DNA of 64,000 nt from Spiribacter salinus M19-40. GTDB lineage: Bacteria > Pseudomonadota > Gammaproteobacteria > Nitrococcales > Nitrococcaceae. The translations under genes were made by a program, and so were the position numbers. Within the stretch, counting starts at the first letter, position 1; each line of letters starts with the position of its first letter. Below the pieces are notes generated by a model. That model searched no databases and had not been told where the DNA came from. It was given only the letters and a program-made list of their open reading frames with translations. Positions 14,779 through 23,367 of the stretch are shown here, one piece after another. The DNA lies in the NCBI RefSeq assembly GCF_000319575.2, contig NC_021291.1:248001-312000 (forward strand), in the 5' to 3' direction.

Positions 14779-15711
14779 TCAGTCAGGGGTGGATTGCATC
14801 ATCAAGACCGCGAAGCGGGACTCGGCGTCATGCCACTGGTGACTCACCACCCAATCGGCTTCGGCGGCCAGGGCCGTGAATCCCGCGATGCTGTACTTGT
14901 GAGAGGTCTCGGTGTGCAGGCTCTCGCCGGCCTCAAGCTCGAATGACTCGCCGGCCATCTGGACGGACACAGGCCGCTCGCAGACCAGATGCATCTCAAT
15001 GCGTGGAGGGTCTTCGAAATACCGCGCTTCGTGGCGGAAGGCCGCGAGATCGAAATTGGCGTCGAGCTCGCGGTTGATCCGCACGAGCAGGTTGCGATTG
15101 AACTCGGCGGTCACCCCCTCGGGGTCGTCATAGGCGGGAATCAGGACTTCCGGGGATTTGTCGAGATCGATCCCGAGCAGAAAACGTGCCCCATCCCCCA
15201 GCAGGGTGTGGCAGTGACGGAGCAGGGCATGCGCGTTTTCGGCGGTGAGGTTGCCAATGGTTGAGCCCGGGAAGAACCCCAGTCGGCCCGTGTGTGCCGG
15301 CAGATCAGGGGGCAGGTCGAAGGCGGTGGTAAAGTCGGCCACCCACGGGTGAACGGGCAGGTTCGGTACCTGCGCGCGCAGCGTCTCGGCCGCCTCGGCG
15401 AGGTACGCCGCGGAGATGTCGAGCGGCACGTAGCCGGCCGGCTGCTCAAGCGCACGCAGTAGCGGTGCGGTTTTGCGGCTTGAGCCGCTGCCAAGCTCCA
15501 CGACAAGGCTGTCGGTTGGCACGACCGCCGCGATATCGGCCAGGTGCGCGTCGAGAATACTGATCTCCGTGCGGGTTGGGTAATAGCTCGGTAGGCGGGT
15601 GATGGCCTCAAAGAGCTCCGAGCCGCGCTGGTCGTACAACCAGGTCGATGGAATGCGATGACCCGGCTCACGCAGGGCCGCGAGGACGTCATCCTTCAGG
15701 GTTTGAGTCAT
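14779..15711 (-). CDS. egtD: L-histidine N-alpha-methyltransferase (hercynine synthase)
   Basis: 310 residues. EgtD trimethylates histidine with three S-adenosylmethionines to give hercynine, the shared precursor of ergothioneine and selenoneine. Visible blocks: STWLYDQRGSELFEAIT near the N-terminus, the SAM-binding VELGSGSSRKTAPLLRAL (about residues 70-87), LGFFPGSTIGNL (about 141-152), the ALLGIDLDKS-like loop (FLLGIDLDKS) and the histidine-pocket segment ESLHTETSHKYS near the end. It begins 23 bases after the permease gene on the same strand and is the last gene of the senA-ABC-egtD run. No egtA, egtC or egtE is present in the window. AGGATA serves as the ribosome site. Confidence 0.94.
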   Translation of the reverse strand: MTQTLKDDVLAALREPGHRIPSTWLYDQRGSELFEAITRLPSYYPTRTEISILDAHLADIAAVVPTDSLVVELGSGSSRKTAPLLRALEQPAGYVPLDISAAYLAEAAETLRAQVPNLPVHPWVADFTTAFDLPPDLPAHTGRLGFFPGSTIGNLTAENAHALLRHCHTLLGDGARFLLGIDLDKSPEVLIPAYDDPEGVTAEFNRNLLVRINRELDANFDLAAFRHEARYFEDPPRIEMHLVCERPVSVQMAGESFELEAGESLHTETSHKYSIAGFTALAAEADWVVSHQWHDAESRFAVLMMQSTPD

Positions 15712-15734: not shown

Positions 15735-17249
15735 TCAGGGCGGCGTGGACGCCGTGGGTGTTGTGCGCAGTTGCAGGTGTTGGCGCATGCGCCGGGCGAC
15801 GGCGTCCACGGCGATGTTCAGCAAGGCGGTGATGAGGATCAGGACCATGGCGCGGTCAAAGCGCAGCTCCTGGATTGCGCTATCCACATAGAAGCCGAGG
15901 GTGGTGATCCCGAGAATCCCGAGGATGGCGGTCTCGCGCATGATGATTTCCCAGCGATAGAACAAGAACGCGAGGAAGGGCCGGTAGAGCCGCGGGACCA
16001 CCTCGTGGGTATAACGGTTAAAGCCGCCCACGGCATCAGGCCGCAGCGAGAGCTGGTTGCTCTGGCGGCCGATGAGATGACCGATGATCGCGCCATTGTG
16101 GATGGCCAGCGCCGCAACGGCGGGCAGCATGGAGGGCCCCCAGAGCTGCAGCAGGATATAGGCGAGCAGATACTCGGGCGTTGAGCGGCCGATGATAAGC
16201 AGCGCGTTGCCGCCGCCCCGGGTGATGGGCCCCGAGAAAAGCCGCGAGATCAGCGGGAAGCTGATCAGCGCCAGCACGCCAGTCGCCACCAGCGCAATCT
16301 GGGTCAGTACGAGCGTCGCGCCGATGCCGGGCAGCGCCTGGTTGACCAGCAGATCCCACAGCCAGGGGCCAAGCCCCGCTAAGCCCTCACCGCTGCGCAG
16401 CGGTGCCGGGATGATGTCCTCGGTGAAAAACCGGGTGGCATTACCCCAAACAATGGGCAGCCCCGTGCCAAGGAAAAACGGCGCGGCCAGCAGGTAGAAA
16501 GGCACCAGACGCGGACGCACCCACAGGCGGAGGCTGGCAATCAGCGCGAGGAAGAGCAGGAGCAGCATGCCGACCTCGCCGTACAACCCTTCGCCATAGG
16601 CGCTTTCCAGATAAAAGCCGAGCGTGGGCATGCCCACAAAGCCAAGGATGGCACTGGAGCGCATGCCGCATTCCAGCCGGTAGCTGGTGTAGCTCATGAG
16701 ATGGGGCCACACATCGGGGACCCGGGCATACCAGAAGGTGGAAATCAGCCCACTGCCCGCCGGTAGCGCGCGTGCCGGGCGCGCATCGCCTTCCTCAAGG
16801 ATCTCGCTGTACACCCGGGCAAAGACCGCGGCATAAGGCAGCGCGATGGCGAGCACCCCGGTGAGTGGGTGTAGCCCGAAAAACTGCAAGAAGATCAGGG
16901 CCCAGAAGAGCTCATGAATCCCCCGAATAAACGCGCAGGCACCACGGACCCAGCGGTGGTGAAACACCAGGGCGAGCCCCATCCCCGCGATCGCGGCGAG
17001 GCCCACGCCGGTAAAGGCAAACGTGATGGTGCGCAGCAGCGCGGTGCCCGCCGTATCCAGGGTGCGGAAATCTGGCTGGATCAGGCCGTGGGCGAAACGG
17101 CCCAACTCCGCCCAGGGGGAAATGGAGCGGATCTCGAAGTCCGCGAGCGCCACGCAAACCAGCGCGATCGCGACCAGCCACAAGCTGGTGCGGACCGTTG
17201 GAGACGATAGCGCGGTCCAGGCCAGGGGGCTGCGCTCAGTAAAGCGCAT
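15735..17249 (-). CDS. PhnE-like ABC permease, two domains fused; probable selenium oxyanion importer
   Basis: 504 residues from the ATG at 17249 (overlapping the ATPase stop by 14 bases); an ATG at 17285 would add 12 residues. The protein is an internal duplication: two PhnE-type permease domains, each with about six membrane helices. Each ends in a matching coupling-helix block, YRLECGMRSSAILGFVG in the first half and YRWEIIMRETAILGILG in the second. Single-domain PhnE permeases are about 260-280 residues and pair as dimers; here one chain supplies both halves. The gene lies between the ATPase and egtD. The phosphonate-like fold is clear; the substrate is not. Its position among selenoneine genes points to selenite or selenate, or a related small anion. 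Confidence 0.8.
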   Translation of the reverse strand: MRFTERSPLAWTALSSPTVRTSLWLVAIALVCVALADFEIRSISPWAELGRFAHGLIQPDFRTLDTAGTALLRTITFAFTGVGLAAIAGMGLALVFHHRWVRGACAFIRGIHELFWALIFLQFFGLHPLTGVLAIALPYAAVFARVYSEILEEGDARPARALPAGSGLISTFWYARVPDVWPHLMSYTSYRLECGMRSSAILGFVGMPTLGFYLESAYGEGLYGEVGMLLLLFLALIASLRLWVRPRLVPFYLLAAPFFLGTGLPIVWGNATRFFTEDIIPAPLRSGEGLAGLGPWLWDLLVNQALPGIGATLVLTQIALVATGVLALISFPLISRLFSGPITRGGGNALLIIGRSTPEYLLAYILLQLWGPSMLPAVAALAIHNGAIIGHLIGRQSNQLSLRPDAVGGFNRYTHEVVPRLYRPFLAFLFYRWEIIMRETAILGILGITTLGFYVDSAIQELRFDRAMVLILITALLNIAVDAVARRMRQHLQLRTTPTASTPP

Positions 17250-17886
17250 CAAGTGCCTCGGTCTCGACGGCGTCGGCAGCGACATCCATCGCGATCAGGC
17301 CATGGCGAATGCCGACAAGTCGGTCGGCATAGCGCCGAGCCAGTTGCAGATCATGCATGGCGATCACTGCGGTTTCATACTGCTCTGTGAGGGCTTCCAT
17401 TACCCGCTCAGCCCGGGGGCCATCCAGGGCTGAAACGGGCTCATCGGCGAGTAGCACATGGCCGCCTTGAAAAAGGGTGCGGGCGACGGCCACGCGCTGG
17501 CGTTGTCCACCCGAGAGTTCACCGGTGCGGGCCCAGAGCGTTTCAGTCATGTCGAGGCGCTCAAGCACAGCCGTGACGCCCTTCACCTCCCGCCGGAAAG
17601 GCCGGATGAGATTGGCGAGGTTGTACGCCGCTGAATGGTGACTGAGTTGGCCCATAAACACGTTATGAAACACGCTGAGGGTTTCGACCAGGCCAAGGTC
17701 TTGCGGCATCAGCGCAATATCTCGGCGCGTGCGGTCGTGCAGTAACGCGAGCAGCGTGGACTTGCCAGCGCCACTGCGCCCCACGAGGGCCACGCGTTCG
17801 CCCGCGTTAATGTCGAGGTCGAGTGGACCAAGCACCGGCTGCCCGCCGTAGTCCGCGCGGGCGCCGGTGAGGGCAAGTGCGCTCAT
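17236..17886 (-). CDS. ABC transporter ATPase, PhnC-like
   Basis: 216 residues, compact compared with about 250-280 for typical PhnC. Walker A GRSGAGKST (about residues 36-44), Q-loop LMPQDLGLV, signature LSGGQRQRVAVAR, Walker B VLLADEPVSALD and the H-loop AMHDL are all intact, so it should hydrolyse ATP. The segment LSVFHNVFMGQL resembles phosphonate importer ATPases. It overlaps the binding-protein gene by one base and the permease gene by 14 (or 50) bases, so the three transporter genes are tightly coupled. Confidence 0.9.
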   Translation of the reverse strand: MSALALTGARADYGGQPVLGPLDLDINAGERVALVGRSGAGKSTLLALLHDRTRRDIALMPQDLGLVETLSVFHNVFMGQLSHHSAAYNLANLIRPFRREVKGVTAVLERLDMTETLWARTGELSGGQRQRVAVARTLFQGGHVLLADEPVSALDGPRAERVMEALTEQYETAVIAMHDLQLARRYADRLVGIRHGLIAMDVAADAVETEALDALY

Positions 17887-18749
17887 CAGTCAATCAGACC
17901 AATGGTCTGTGCGGTTTCTTTGAGCCCCGCATAATCGTCGTTGGAGACGGGGACAAAGCCGCTGCGCGGGAAGCGCTCCAGCAGTTCGGGGTCGTCCATG
18001 GCCAGCAGCGCGTCCTGAACCCGGTCGGTAAAGCCTTCGCCAAACCGCTCATCGACATCGCCGCGGATGCTCCACTGGTAGTTCAGATAGCCGGGTGTCT
18101 CCCAGATCACCTGGACTGAGTCGGTATCAATGTTGCCGTCGGCGAGTTCCCGCTCCCAGACAGCGAAATTGATGGCGCCGACCTCGTAGCTGCCACTCTC
18201 CACCAGACGCAGTGTCCGGCTGTGGTTGCCACTATAGCCGACCCGCTCAAACGTTTCTTCAGGGGCTTCCCCTAACTGATCACGCAGATGGTACTCCGGC
18301 ATGAGTCGACCGGATGTGGAGCTCTTGGAGCCAAAGGTAAAGGTCCTGTCACGGAGCGCGGGCCCGAGCGTGTCACTGGGGCTCAGCCCTGTGCTTTCGT
18401 GGGCGATGAAATAGGAGCGGAATCCCTCATCTTCAACCCCGCGGGCCAGCGCCTGCGAATCTGGCACCCGGGCACGGGCCTGCACCCCCGAGAGACCACC
18501 AAACCAGGCGAGTTGGACCTGATTGTTGCGAAAGGCGGTCACGGCGGCGGCGTAGGATTTAACCGGGACGTAGCGGACCTCAACGTCGAGAGCCTCTTCA
18601 AGGTAGGCCCCAATGGCGTTGAAGCGCTCTTCGAGCTCGCTTTCATCCTGATCAGGGATCGCGGTGAAAACGAACACCTCGGCTTGAGCGGGCAGGGTCA
18701 TCAGCAGCGTGAGGACGATGGCTGTCGCAAGGGAGCGTAGGGTTTGCAT
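17886..18749 (-). CDS. PhnD-like periplasmic binding protein, probable selenium oxyanion receptor
   Basis: 287 residues with a Sec signal peptide (residues 1-23, ending AQA). The mature part is a two-lobed PhnD-family receptor: FTAIPDQDESELEERFNAIG at the start of the first lobe, AWFGGLSGVQARA, and FGSKSSTSGRLMPEYHL, whose STSG loop binds the anion in phosphite/phosphonate receptors. Then come GYSGNHSRTLRLVESGSYEVGA and the closing helices. No phosphonate catabolism gene (phnGHIJKLM, phnX, ptxD) is nearby, while selenoneine genes flank it. I recall an NCBI family for PhnD-like proteins predicted to bind selenate in the same gene context, but I could not check membership. First transporter gene, 24 bases after senA. 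Confidence 0.8.
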   Translation of the reverse strand: MQTLRSLATAIVLTLLMTLPAQAEVFVFTAIPDQDESELEERFNAIGAYLEEALDVEVRYVPVKSYAAAVTAFRNNQVQLAWFGGLSGVQARARVPDSQALARGVEDEGFRSYFIAHESTGLSPSDTLGPALRDRTFTFGSKSSTSGRLMPEYHLRDQLGEAPEETFERVGYSGNHSRTLRLVESGSYEVGAINFAVWERELADGNIDTDSVQVIWETPGYLNYQWSIRGDVDERFGEGFTDRVQDALLAMDDPELLERFPRSGFVPVSNDDYAGLKETAQTIGLID

Positions 18750-18773: not shown

Positions 18774-20093
18774 TTAGCGCGCGCAGGTTCGGAACCCGGC
18801 GATGAGGTCGTTGCGCCCGGGGGCGAAGAAATTGCGGGTGTTGATGTTGAGATGCCGACGGCGGGTTGCCCAGCTGCCACCGCGCAGGACGCTGCGACCG
18901 TCCTCAAACCAGGGCGCGGAGTATTCGGCATACAAGTCCGCCTGGAAGCCGGGATACGGCGCAAACGGCGAGGCCGTCCATTCCCAGACGTTACCCAGCA
19001 TCTGACGGCAGCCAAGGGCACTGTCGCCCTCGGCTAGTCCGGCCACGTCGACCGTACCGACCCGGTAGCCGTCGGTATTGGCATGGCGGCTGTCACCCGG
19101 GGCGTTGCCCCAGGGGTAGTGACGTTTGCCCGGTTCGAGACCGTTGTCACTGGGTACGCGACTCGCGGCCATTTCCCATTCCGCCTCGGTGGGCAGTCGC
19201 CGGCCGGCCCAGCGACAGAATGCCTCGGCCTCGTACCGACTGACATGAGAGACCGGCGCATTGGGTTGCATCGGATACCAGGCGTCAAAATGGCGGACTT
19301 CCCAGCCGCCCGGGCCGCTTCGCCAATAGACCGGTGCCGCCAGTTCACTGGATTCCCGCCAGGCCCAACCTTCGGCTGACCAGTAGGCCGGATCGCGATA
19401 GCCGCCCGCCTCGACAAAGGCCGCGAACTCGGCCTGCGTCACCGGGGCGCGGGCAATTCGGAACGGCGCAACCTGAATGGTGTGCGCGGTCTTTTCGTTG
19501 TCGAAGCGAAAAGGGACATCATCGTCGGCGCCGAGCGTGTGCTCGCCGCCGGGTATGGCGACATCGCCCTCAATCGCGCCGGAGTCGACATCCGCCAGGC
19601 GCGCTGGGGCGTCGATCACCGGCGCCGGATCAGCGAGTGTCTGACGGGTGTAGGTAAAGGCCTCACCGTGCATGTCCTCGTGAAAAACCGCGAGCTGCCA
19701 GACATAACTCGTGGCGGCATCGGCCATGCCCTCGGGCAGGCGTGCCGCCATTTCGTCACGGATCTGGCACAGATAGCCCAAGGTGTCGTCTAGTGTGGGC
19801 AGGGCGAGGTCCCAGCGGTCATCGTGAGCGACGCCCATGGAGTCATACAGGCGCTCCGCATGGGGGATCTGGTAGTCGCTCAGGCCCTGATGAAGGTGCA
19901 GGAAGAAGTGATCGTAGAAAAACCCGACATGGCCGATCTCCCACTGGGGCGGATTGACGATGCTAAGCTTCGGGCCCATGCGGCGTTCTGCCGGCAGATC
20001 GCCGGTCAATGCCAGTGTGCGTTGACGGGCGTCATCCAGCATGGCAATCAGATTTTCGGAGGCGACAGGATGAGTCGGTGGGGTCTGAATCAT
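18774..20093 (-). CDS. senA: Selenoneine synthase SenA-like (EgtB-family non-haem iron enzyme)
   Basis: 439 residues: an N-terminal DinB-like helical bundle (about 1-165) and a C-terminal FGE/sulfatase-modifying-factor-type domain (about 175-437). The iron triad is visible as H55 (WEIGHV) and H138/H142 (FHEDMHGEAF). SenA couples a selenosugar to hercynine with O2 to make selenoneine; EgtB couples cysteine derivatives to hercynine for ergothioneine. The HEDMHGEAFTYTRQTL helix and NPPQWEIGHVGFFYDHF differ from the HEQQH-type helix of classical EgtB and resemble, from memory, the EgtB-related SenA group. The divergent senB partner and nearby selD support SenA. The FGE end has GNVWEWTAS and VLRGGSWATRRRHLNINTRN. 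Ribosome site CAGGAG at 20106-20101. Whether it also makes ergothioneine is open. Confidence 0.82.
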   Translation of the reverse strand: MIQTPPTHPVASENLIAMLDDARQRTLALTGDLPAERRMGPKLSIVNPPQWEIGHVGFFYDHFFLHLHQGLSDYQIPHAERLYDSMGVAHDDRWDLALPTLDDTLGYLCQIRDEMAARLPEGMADAATSYVWQLAVFHEDMHGEAFTYTRQTLADPAPVIDAPARLADVDSGAIEGDVAIPGGEHTLGADDDVPFRFDNEKTAHTIQVAPFRIARAPVTQAEFAAFVEAGGYRDPAYWSAEGWAWRESSELAAPVYWRSGPGGWEVRHFDAWYPMQPNAPVSHVSRYEAEAFCRWAGRRLPTEAEWEMAASRVPSDNGLEPGKRHYPWGNAPGDSRHANTDGYRVGTVDVAGLAEGDSALGCRQMLGNVWEWTASPFAPYPGFQADLYAEYSAPWFEDGRSVLRGGSWATRRRHLNINTRNFFAPGRNDLIAGFRTCAR

Positions 20094-20119: not shown

Positions 20120-21103
20120 ATGAAGATCGGACTGGTGACGCCAGCTGCACCGGGCTCGTTGGCCGGCAATCGCGCCACGGCGACCCGCTGGGCGAGCCGG
20201 CTGCGCGCGGCTGGGCATCGGGTGCGCGTGCGCGAGCGCTGGGACGTCGGTGATCCGGTTTTTGATGTCCTGTTGGCGCTCCATGCCTGGCGCAGTGCGC
20301 CGAGCATTGCCGCGTTTGCCGAGCGCTATCCGGATCGGCCACGGGTGGTGGTTTTGACCGGAACGGACATTTATCGCTTTCAGCATAGCGACCCGGCGGT
20401 CACCAAGGCCAGTCTCGGACGTGCTCATGCGCTCATTGGACTGCATGATCATGTCCATCGTGATATCCCCGCCCGGTTTCACCCGATCTTGCACACCGTC
20501 CATCAGTCGGCTTCGCCGTTGCCGCCCAGTTACCGCGGCCCGTTGACTGATCGCTTCGAGCTCTGCGTTGTGGGTCACCTGCGTGAGGAAAAGGACAGCC
20601 TCCGCGCAGCGCTCGCCGCGCGCGATCTGCCCTCGGACTCGCGCATTCGCATCACCCAGGCGGGCCGTGCGCACACCGCGGAATGGGCGCAGGCCGCTGA
20701 GGCTGAGGCTGATGCCAACCCGCGTTATCGATGGGTGGGCGAGATCGGTCAAGGCGCGATTCGGCGGCTTTATGCCTGCAGTCGCGCGATGGTGATGAGC
20801 TCGGTGATGGAAGGCGGTGCCAACGTGGTCTCGGAGGCTTGTGTGGCCGGGCTGCCGGTGCTGGCGAGTGACATCCCGGGCAACACCGGGTTGCTTGGGG
20901 ATCATTACCCTGGGCTCTATCCAGCCCAGGACACCGCCGCGCTGTGTGCGTTGATGTCTCGCACGGAAACGGACCCCGACTTCCTTGCCGATTTGGCGAT
21001 GCGCTGTCGAGCGCTTGCGCCCCGCTTTACGCCGGCAGCGGAGCAGGCCGCCCTGTGTCGCGCCATTGATGCCGCCGTTGAGCATGCTCACGGCTTGAGC
21101 TGA
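20120..21103 (+). CDS. senB: Selenosugar synthase SenB-like glycosyltransferase (TIGR04348-type)
   Basis: 327 residues, a GT-B fold family 4 glycosyltransferase. It starts with MKIGLVTPAAPGSLAGNRAT, has TGTDIYRFQ in the first lobe and VVGHLREEKDSLRA at the domain hinge. S227-A240 reads SSVMEGGANVVSEA and contains the E-x7-E motif (E231, E239) that holds the UDP-sugar phosphates. The VMEGGANVVSEA form is characteristic, from memory, of the TIGR04348 family, whose characterised member SenB uses selenophosphate and a UDP-sugar to make a selenosugar. Transcribed away from senA; its last 16 bases overlap the selD stop. Calling it SenB rests on this motif and on the senA and selD neighbours. Confidence 0.85.
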   Translation: MKIGLVTPAAPGSLAGNRATATRWASRLRAAGHRVRVRERWDVGDPVFDVLLALHAWRSAPSIAAFAERYPDRPRVVVLTGTDIYRFQHSDPAVTKASLGRAHALIGLHDHVHRDIPARFHPILHTVHQSASPLPPSYRGPLTDRFELCVVGHLREEKDSLRAALAARDLPSDSRIRITQAGRAHTAEWAQAAEAEADANPRYRWVGEIGQGAIRRLYACSRAMVMSSVMEGGANVVSEACVAGLPVLASDIPGNTGLLGDHYPGLYPAQDTAALCALMSRTETDPDFLADLAMRCRALAPRFTPAAEQAALCRAIDAAVEHAHGLS

Positions 21104-23367
21104 ACCGGTTCGAGGGCATCGCCCTGCGGTTCTACCTGGCCGATGATGGCCGTGTGCGGATAGCCGAGATCCTTGAGTTCACGCACGCAGGCATCCGCCT
21201 GCTCAGCCGGCACACTGGCCAGGAGCCCGCCGGCTGTCTGCGGGTCGAAGACCAGCGGATAGCGGGGATGGTCCAAGACGGTCTCGGCGTGACGGATGGC
21301 GCGGCGCAGCCGCACGTTGGCGGGTTGTAGTGAGCTCAGAATACCAGCGGCCACTGTCTCCTCCGCCCCCTCAAGCACGGGCAGTGCAGACAGCGTCAGC
21401 GTGGCGTCGACTTCCGAGGGGCGGGTCATTTCTACCAGGTGCCCCAACAAACCAAACCCGGTGAGATCCGTGCAGGCCGTGGCGCCCTGGCGATGCAGGC
21501 ACTGGGCTGCGAGACGATTGGAATGGCGCATCGAGCGAAGCGCCTCGTCGATCCAGCGCCCCCGGGTCGCAAGACGGGCATGCGCCGCAAACAAGGTGCC
21601 CGTGCCGATGGGTTTGGTGAGTATCAACACATTGCCGGGCTGCATGCCGCCTTTGCGCATGATGTGATCAGCCTGGTCGTCAATCAGGCCGTTGATGGCG
21701 AACCCGAGTGCAAGCTCCTGGCCCTCGCCGGTGTGGCCACCGACCAGTGCACAGTCCGCGTCGTTCAGGATCTCGAGCGCCCCAGCCATCATCTGGTAAA
21801 CCGTATCCTCGACTTTCGACTCCAGGCCCTGCGGCACCGTGGCGACGGCGGTGGCGGTCTGTGCCTCGGCGCCCATGGCAAAGATATCGCCAAGGGCATG
21901 GTTGGCGGCAATCTGGCCAAAGATATACGGATCATCGATAAAGGCCCGAAAGAAATCGACGGTGTGCACCATGGCCTTGCCGGGCGGGACGCGCACAACC
22001 GCGGCATCATCGGGCGCGTGGAGCCCAATGAGGACGTCCTCCCGGTCCACGGGCTGCAGGGCGCCGAGTGCCCGCGACAGGGTAGAGGCTCCCACCTTGG
22101 CGCCACAGCCGCCGCAGCGCATGGCGACCGCGGAGATGGCCTGTTTGGCTTCTTCCCCCTCCAGTGCCACGCGTGAGCGCGGTCCGCGCCGCGCCGGTTC
22201 TTCCATAGCCGGCAGCTCATTGAACCGCGCCATGAAGCGGCGGTCGATCCAGTCCTTCCATCGCCACAGTGCCGCGCCCTCGGCGCCGAAAGGCCCGCGA
22301 GAGGCCACTGCGTATTGATCGCCTGTGCTGATCAGCGCAAGCCAATGGCGCTGGGGTCGATACTGCTGCGGTTCTCGATCCTCCAGCGACAGGCGCAGGT
22401 TGCGCGCCAGCGGCCGGCCCTGGCGAACGGCGAAGACGCCCGCTTTCTCTCGGGGGTGGTTGACCATGCTCGCGATGTCGCCGGCCGCAAAGACGTTCGG
22501 GTCCGTCACCGTCTGTAGCGTATCGGTGACCTGAATGAAGCCACTGTCATCCAGTGCGAGTCCGGTGTCCCGTAGCCACGGCGCACCGCCAGCCCGAGTC
22601 ACCCAGACCACCTCATCGGCGTGATGGTGTTGGCCATCGACCGTGGTCAGCCCCGTCGCATCGACACCCGTCACTTCGGCGTTGCAGTGAACGGCCACGC
22701 CGCGTTCACCCAGCACGCGGGCGAAACGCCGCTGCACATGGGGCGCATGGGTGGGGAGTACGGTGCGGCCGCGCGTGAACAGCGCGAAGGCCAGTAGGTC
22801 CGGGTTCTGCTTCAAGGCCTTTAGCTCGCTGCGCAGTCGATGCTGCATTGCCAGCAGCAGCTCAACGCCCCCGGCGCCGCCGCCCACAACCGCGATCCGC
22901 ATCGGCCCGGGCGTTGAGCGCACCCGCTCGAGCAACGCCAGCCAGCGGTCGTTGAAGCGGTGGATGGGTTTGACGGCGACCGCATGGTCGGCGGCGCCAC
23001 CGGTGTTACTGAGCTTCGGCGTTGAGCCAATATTGATCGACAGCCGGTCATAGGGGATGGCGGGGCGATCGCTGCAAATCACCTGCTGGCCTGCACGATC
23101 AATCCCGGTGGCTTCGGTGCGAAGGAAACGCGCACCAGCGAACTCCGCGAGGCGGCGCAGATCGATGTGCACATCGTCATAGGCGTAATGCCCTGCCACG
23201 TACCCGGGCAGCATCCCGGAATAGGGGGTATGGGTGTCGCGGCAGATCAGCGTCAGGCGGATGCCAGGCGCCGGCTTCATGCCAAACCGCCGCAACACAC
23301 CGACATGACTGTGGCCGCCGCCGACCAGAACGATGTCCCGGAGGACCGGCTGCTGGGTATTCTGCAT
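21088..23367 (-). CDS. selD: Fused FAD pyridine-nucleotide oxidoreductase - selenophosphate synthetase
   Basis: 759 residues. Residues 1-390 are an NDH-2/sulfide:quinone reductase-like flavoprotein: IVLVGGGHSHVGVLRRFG (FAD site), VGGGAGGVELLLAMQ (NAD(P)H site) and FAAGDIAS near its end. Residues about 410-755 are SelD, which makes selenophosphate from selenide and ATP. The catalytic loop is C418-G-G-C421-G-A-K424. C421 aligns with E. coli Cys17 and K424 with Lys20, and the codon is TGT, so it is a cysteine form and not a selenoprotein. The ATP and metal loops GLHAPDDAAVV, TDLTGFGLLGHL and FDPQTAGGLLASV are intact. The flavin domain could reduce a selenium species for the fused synthetase. It is 37 bases downstream of prlC and in this context could supply SenB (SenC role). 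Confidence 0.92.
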   Translation of the reverse strand: MQNTQQPVLRDIVLVGGGHSHVGVLRRFGMKPAPGIRLTLICRDTHTPYSGMLPGYVAGHYAYDDVHIDLRRLAEFAGARFLRTEATGIDRAGQQVICSDRPAIPYDRLSINIGSTPKLSNTGGAADHAVAVKPIHRFNDRWLALLERVRSTPGPMRIAVVGGGAGGVELLLAMQHRLRSELKALKQNPDLLAFALFTRGRTVLPTHAPHVQRRFARVLGERGVAVHCNAEVTGVDATGLTTVDGQHHHADEVVWVTRAGGAPWLRDTGLALDDSGFIQVTDTLQTVTDPNVFAAGDIASMVNHPREKAGVFAVRQGRPLARNLRLSLEDREPQQYRPQRHWLALISTGDQYAVASRGPFGAEGAALWRWKDWIDRRFMARFNELPAMEEPARRGPRSRVALEGEEAKQAISAVAMRCGGCGAKVGASTLSRALGALQPVDREDVLIGLHAPDDAAVVRVPPGKAMVHTVDFFRAFIDDPYIFGQIAANHALGDIFAMGAEAQTATAVATVPQGLESKVEDTVYQMMAGALEILNDADCALVGGHTGEGQELALGFAINGLIDDQADHIMRKGGMQPGNVLILTKPIGTGTLFAAHARLATRGRWIDEALRSMRHSNRLAAQCLHRQGATACTDLTGFGLLGHLVEMTRPSEVDATLTLSALPVLEGAEETVAAGILSSLQPANVRLRRAIRHAETVLDHPRYPLVFDPQTAGGLLASVPAEQADACVRELKDLGYPHTAIIGQVEPQGDALEPVQLKP

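Follow-up and report, generated by a model that had tools for sequence, protein, structure and literature searches.

A putative selenite importer of the TIGR04553 family within the selenoneine gene cluster of Spiribacter salinus

We propose that three tandem genes of Spiribacter salinus M19-40 encode an ABC importer dedicated to selenium, taken up as an inorganic oxyanion that is most likely selenite. We regard this reading as likely (probability of about 0.76), on evidence that is strong but indirect, with both the ligand and the direction of transport being inferred. The genes lie in a stretch of 64,000 nucleotides (the window), taken from a genome that consists of a single 1.74-Mb contig. 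According to a 2026 review, prokaryotes have no identified selenium transport system that is both specific and of high affinity (PMC13188914). The family to which the receptor belongs, TIGR04553, is a concrete candidate for a selenium importer, and its occurrence tracks the use of selenium irrespective of the final product.

The operon is on the minus strand, with senA on one side and egtD on the other. The receptor gene (positions 17,886 to 18,749; 287 amino acids), which encodes a substrate-binding protein that we propose to be the selenite receptor, has one nucleotide in common with the gene of the ATPase subunit (17,236 to 17,886; 216 amino acids), and the latter overlaps by 50 nucleotides with the gene of a fused two-domain PhnE-type permease (15,735 to 17,285; 516 amino acids). 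The permease gene is separated by a 23-nucleotide gap from egtD (14,779 to 15,711, minus strand), encoding the histidine N-alpha-methyltransferase that makes hercynine (TIGR03438, 369 bits, above cut-off). Upstream of the receptor gene, across a gap of 24 nucleotides, is senA, the selenoneine synthase gene (18,774 to 20,093, minus strand; NF041186, 495 bits, cut-off 420), followed by senB, the selenosugar synthase gene (20,120 to 21,103, plus strand; TIGR04348, 378 bits, cut-off 300), and by a gene for an FAD/NAD oxidoreductase fused to the selenophosphate synthetase SelD, in the role of senC (21,088 to 23,367, minus strand; TIGR03169, 510 bits, and TIGR00476, 294 bits, both above cut-off). 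The fusion protein retains the active-site Cys and Lys. The window thus carries a selenoneine gene set, senA, senB and the SelD fusion, each above its curated cut-off, and membership in the selenoneine clusters is met on gene content, while selenoneine production is inferred from sequence alone. All three functions of the known sen cluster (SenA, SenB, SenC) are present together with egtD, but here an oxidoreductase-SelD fusion fills the SelD role and the importer is part of the operon. MnmH and SelA were not found in the window's own genome, and therefore selenoneine is the only SelD-dependent use of selenium found there. Scans for promoters and terminators gave no clear signal (one promoter found against 1.5 expected, nine terminators against 5.6). 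An arrangement of this kind, in which SelD follows a pyridine nucleotide-disulfide oxidoreductase domain (TIGR03169), has also been reported for picocyanobacteria; the role of this extra domain is unknown, and it might possibly reduce a selenium species to selenide.

The original prediction had described an operon between senA and egtD, an STSG anion loop in the receptor, an unusually short ATPase of 216 residues, a permease that is a two-domain fusion with duplicated motifs, and no phosphonate or phosphite degradation genes nearby. Each of these claims held, the last only as far as the identified neighbours of the operon are concerned. Its central claim, that the ligand is a selenium oxyanion, is supported by membership in TIGR04553, by the association with SelD and by adjacency to selD, senB, mnmH or selA in relatives. 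It needs correction in two respects: the selenium idea already exists as the name of a hypothetical family, and what the nearest relatives bind speaks for selenite rather than selenate.

The window receptor is a strong member of TIGR04553 (427.5 bits, curated cut-off 250) and does not meet membership in the PhnD model TIGR03431 (132 bits, cut-off 261). A phosphonate receptor identity was rejected on this score and on the phylogeny. The NCBIfam name of TIGR04553 is 'putative selenate ABC transporter', a name borne by 16 of 17 plasmid relatives; selenium transport by this family is therefore a known prediction and not a new one, and the evidence presented here departs from the name in favouring selenite. 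We found no experiment behind the name, and in the literature searched the phrase occurs in one paper, as annotation only. What is new here is the association with SelD, the neighbour contexts, the link to PhnD1 and the finding that the ATPase and permease traits extend across the subclade. By its score and its co-occurrence with SelD, the window receptor qualifies as a TIGR04553 putative selenium oxyanion receptor, with binding and transport of selenate or selenite being inferred.

To assess the association with selenium use, we surveyed 249 Pseudomonadota genomes, with related genomes treated as separate counts. The distribution of TIGR04553 scores is sharply bimodal: 21 genomes have a receptor at 327-427 bits (the carriers), and the next best score is 170. 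SelD is above cut-off in 20 of the 21 carriers and in 45 of the 228 other genomes (Fisher p = 3e-12), and within the class it is found in 19/19 carriers against 18/48 non-carriers. As a control, SelD occurs in 28 of 115 genomes with only below-cut-off PhnD-like receptors, compared with 17 of 113 with none (p = 0.10). The link to SelD is specific to the TIGR04553 subfamily, and ordinary PhnD-like receptors show none. The association extends to gene position, with SelD at most 10 kb from the receptor in 8/21 carriers (rough chance 2e-13), a signal that is still strong when adjacency is collapsed to families (5 of 9 families, rough p = 2e-7). SelA is found in 11 of the carriers and MnmH in 19, against SenB in 6, SenA above cut-off in 5 and EgtD in 12. 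Most carriers lack SenB and have no SenA above cut-off, and many lack EgtD (missing from 9/21), and therefore the transporter tracks selenium use in general rather than selenoneine. The one carrier genome without SelD (G143) also has no MnmH or SelA. Its receptor (L133 / L104) stands alone, with no PhnC or PhnE match nearby, and has lost N174 and exchanged the capping Tyr for Thr; it may possibly serve a new role.

The neighbourhoods of 80 relatives from named genomes, for which only the fetched flanks were surveyed, show the same pattern. One or more of selD, senB, senA and mnmH lie inside the flanks in 64 of the 80, and egtD in only two. No selenium gene was seen in the fetched flanks of the other 16 loci; some of these are short contigs, and selD may be present elsewhere in the genome. 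At seven loci selD and mnmH occur without sen genes (MnmH was confirmed by model for two). A Sphaerotilus plasmid has the order mnmH, ATPase, permease, receptor, selD, and a Paracoccus plasmid carries the transporter close to selA and formate dehydrogenase genes. The transporter is thus found in three contexts of selenium use: with sen genes, with selD-mnmH, and with selA and formate dehydrogenase genes. An importer common to three end uses suggests a substrate that is inorganic selenium and enters the pathway before the SelD step. The presence of the importer on large plasmids with either of the latter two gene sets suggests selenium-use modules that may be mobile as blocks. At Marinobacter loci such as L004, L005 and L114-L116, senB, the SelD fusion and the importer are found together, and senA has a separate place in the genome, as verified for L114-L116.

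The closest solved structures to the window receptor, by both sequence and fold, are those of picocyanobacterial PhnD1. The AlphaFold model (pLDDT 91.7) has 7S6G, 5LQ8 and 5LQ5 as its best PDB matches (42% identity for 7S6G, 38% for 5LQ8 and 5LQ5), and the two PhnD1 sequences, at 334 and 302 bits, score high enough to pass as TIGR04553, in contrast to PtxB of P. stutzeri (166 bits). In the receptor tree, a phylogeny that the original prediction had called for, PhnD1 falls inside TIGR04553 as the sister of the window-receptor clade (support 99/96), and this grouping, to the exclusion of the Pseudomonas-type members, is well supported. PtxB and E. coli PhnD are outside the TIGR04553 clade (98/94); the branch joining all 45 TIGR04553 and PhnD1 rows except the long-branched L109 is weaker (91/50). 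The original prediction was to be refuted by a receptor that nests within phosphonate or phosphite receptors and binds those but no selenium species. This is half met: the window receptor does group with the phosphite-binding PhnD1, but inside a selenium-linked clade, and we found no selenium test of PhnD1.

The anion site is shared as well. Phosphate is contacted in PhnD1 by Y44, S124-T125-S126, H156, D203 and Y204 (PMC10284923), which correspond to Tyr66, Ser144-Thr145-Ser146, His176, Asn223 and Tyr224 of the window receptor. D11, Y44, the S-T-S-G loop, H156, N174 and Y204 are identical in the two proteins, and D203 is replaced by N, a residue also found at this position in some picocyanobacteria (PMC10284923). 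The loop (window residues 144-147) is invariant in 29 aligned relatives, and the phosphate-contact residues are kept throughout TIGR04553, with D203 sometimes N, except in the G143 receptor. PtxB (5O2J, 5JVB, 5LV1) resembles the window receptor in its fold, STS loop, His, Tyr and capping Tyr, but its pocket differs from that of TIGR04553 in having P for G63, S for G127, S/A for N174, Q for D/N203 and P for H/Q/N205, and all three PtxB proteins lie outside the clade. A PtxB identity for the window receptor is not supported, as it does not nest with PtxB and the S/A, Q, P pattern is absent. E. coli PhnDCE has the same subunit types and fold as the window operon, but its PhnD lacks the capping Tyr and its PhnC has 262 amino acids against 216 in the window.

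PhnD1 proteins are the only characterised members that we found of the selenium-linked TIGR04553 clade, and their ligand residues are those of the rest of the clade. We did not find a link between TIGR04553 and PhnD1 in the literature searched. The published constants for PhnD1 are 0.05-4.3 uM with phosphite and 7-182 uM with phosphate (PMC10284923), and their ratios give a preference for phosphite of about 6 to 3500 fold. The protein has been characterised as binding phosphite and probably importing phosphate, and it was reported from every one of the 97 picocyanobacterial genomes studied (PMC10284923). Most of its owners have no phosphite-using genes, the two Synechococcus strains tested did not grow on phosphite, and phosphorus starvation does not induce the transporter (PMC10284923). 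Its reported neighbour is tesA, unlike the sen genes at the window locus, and selenium is not mentioned in the main text of that study (PMC10284923). Prochlorococcus and marine Synechococcus have SelD with an NADH-dehydrogenase-like N-terminal extension, plus ybbB (mnmH) (PMC1273633), which implies that selenium use exists in picocyanobacteria. No PhnD1 relatives were found in the viral contigs and phage records searched. It seems to us as likely as not that the whole clade, PhnD1 included, is the missing high-affinity prokaryotic selenite importer, with the phosphite affinity of PhnD1 a side effect of the resemblance of phosphite to selenite. If PhnD1 does belong to the selenium importers, the published phosphorus assignment of a universal picocyanobacterial transporter would change.

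Selenite, like phosphite, is a pyramidal anion with three oxygens. In the proposed mechanism, the periplasmic receptor would close on such an anion through Tyr66, Ser144-Thr145-Ser146, His176 and Asn223, Tyr224 would cap it sterically, and the fused permease and compact ATPase would pump it inward. Cytoplasmic thiols or reductases would then reduce selenite to selenide, the SelD fusion would convert selenide to selenophosphate, SenB would use this to form a selenosugar, and SenA would couple the selenosugar to the hercynine made by EgtD to give selenoneine. The characterised clade members bind phosphite and phosphate, and the lack of ligand data for any selenium species weighs against the selenite reading. 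In addition, part of the affinity of phosphite receptors comes from a P-H...pi interaction with the capping Tyr (PMC5700983), and selenite, with a lone pair at that position, cannot make this contact, which is a point against it. The 16 loci with no selenium gene in their fetched flanks and the G143 carrier without SelD, MnmH or SelA also count against the reading, although some of those loci are short contigs and the G143 receptor has lost its capping Tyr.

The main rival is selenate, a tetrahedral XO4 anion that would be reduced in the cell. It has in its favour the family name, its being the stable form in oxic water, and a PhnD1 pocket that does accommodate tetrahedral phosphate (PMC10284923). 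PhnD1, however, has the same anion site and prefers the pyramidal XO3 anion phosphite over phosphate, and a fourth oxygen in that site has just one hydrogen bond, with the capping Tyr (PMC10284923). We therefore consider selenite the better guess and selenate unlikely, with neither shown.

A further rival is that the operon imports phosphate, phosphite or methylphosphonate and is near selenium genes by chance. The superfamily is the same, the closest solved structures hold phosphorus anions, and the PhnD1 affinities are measured; but the SelD association is confined to the TIGR04553 subfamily, the selenium genes beside it represent three different uses, neither PtxB nor E. coli PhnD belongs to the clade, and PhnD1 shows neither growth on phosphite in tested owners nor induction by phosphorus starvation, so that we find this explanation very unlikely. 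Uptake of hercynine, ergothioneine, selenoneine or a selenosugar is all but excluded. The position between senA and egtD would fit the first three, and the original prediction had offered them as alternatives. However, the carriers without EgtD indicate that none of these three is the family ligand, and with the rarity of egtD as a neighbour they were rejected; most carriers also lack SenB, and the pocket is predicted to be small by analogy with PhnD1, whose Tyr-capped site cannot hold 2-aminoethylphosphonate (PMC10284923). The selenite reading remains the one we prefer.

The short ATPase and the fused permease are traits of the branch and not peculiar to the window operon. The best model for the ATPase is TIGR02315 (PhnC), at 162 of the 266 bits needed. 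By alignment, its shortness reflects about 30 residues absent between Walker A and the Q-loop, and by inspection Walker A, the Q-loop, the signature, Walker B and the switch His are all present. This deletion is common to the window subclade and is absent from the Pseudomonas-type members and from the PhnC paralogue of the same genome (267 amino acids). The permease matches TIGR01097 in two stretches; its halves are homologous (31% identity over 173 columns, E = 1e-13), and an AILG..G..TLGFY stretch is conserved in both. The fusion is kept in the marine (window) subclade, whereas the Pseudomonas-type subclade mostly has two genes. A second PhnDCE-like system is present in the same genome outside the window (G000:C1, about 421-424 kb), with an ATPase of 267 amino acids and a receptor (295 amino acids) distant from TIGR04553, whose ligand is unidentified. 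The Sphaerotilus plasmid combines a permease gene of fused size (1689 nt) with an ATPase gene of 756 nt, indicating that a fused permease does not always go with a shortened ATPase.
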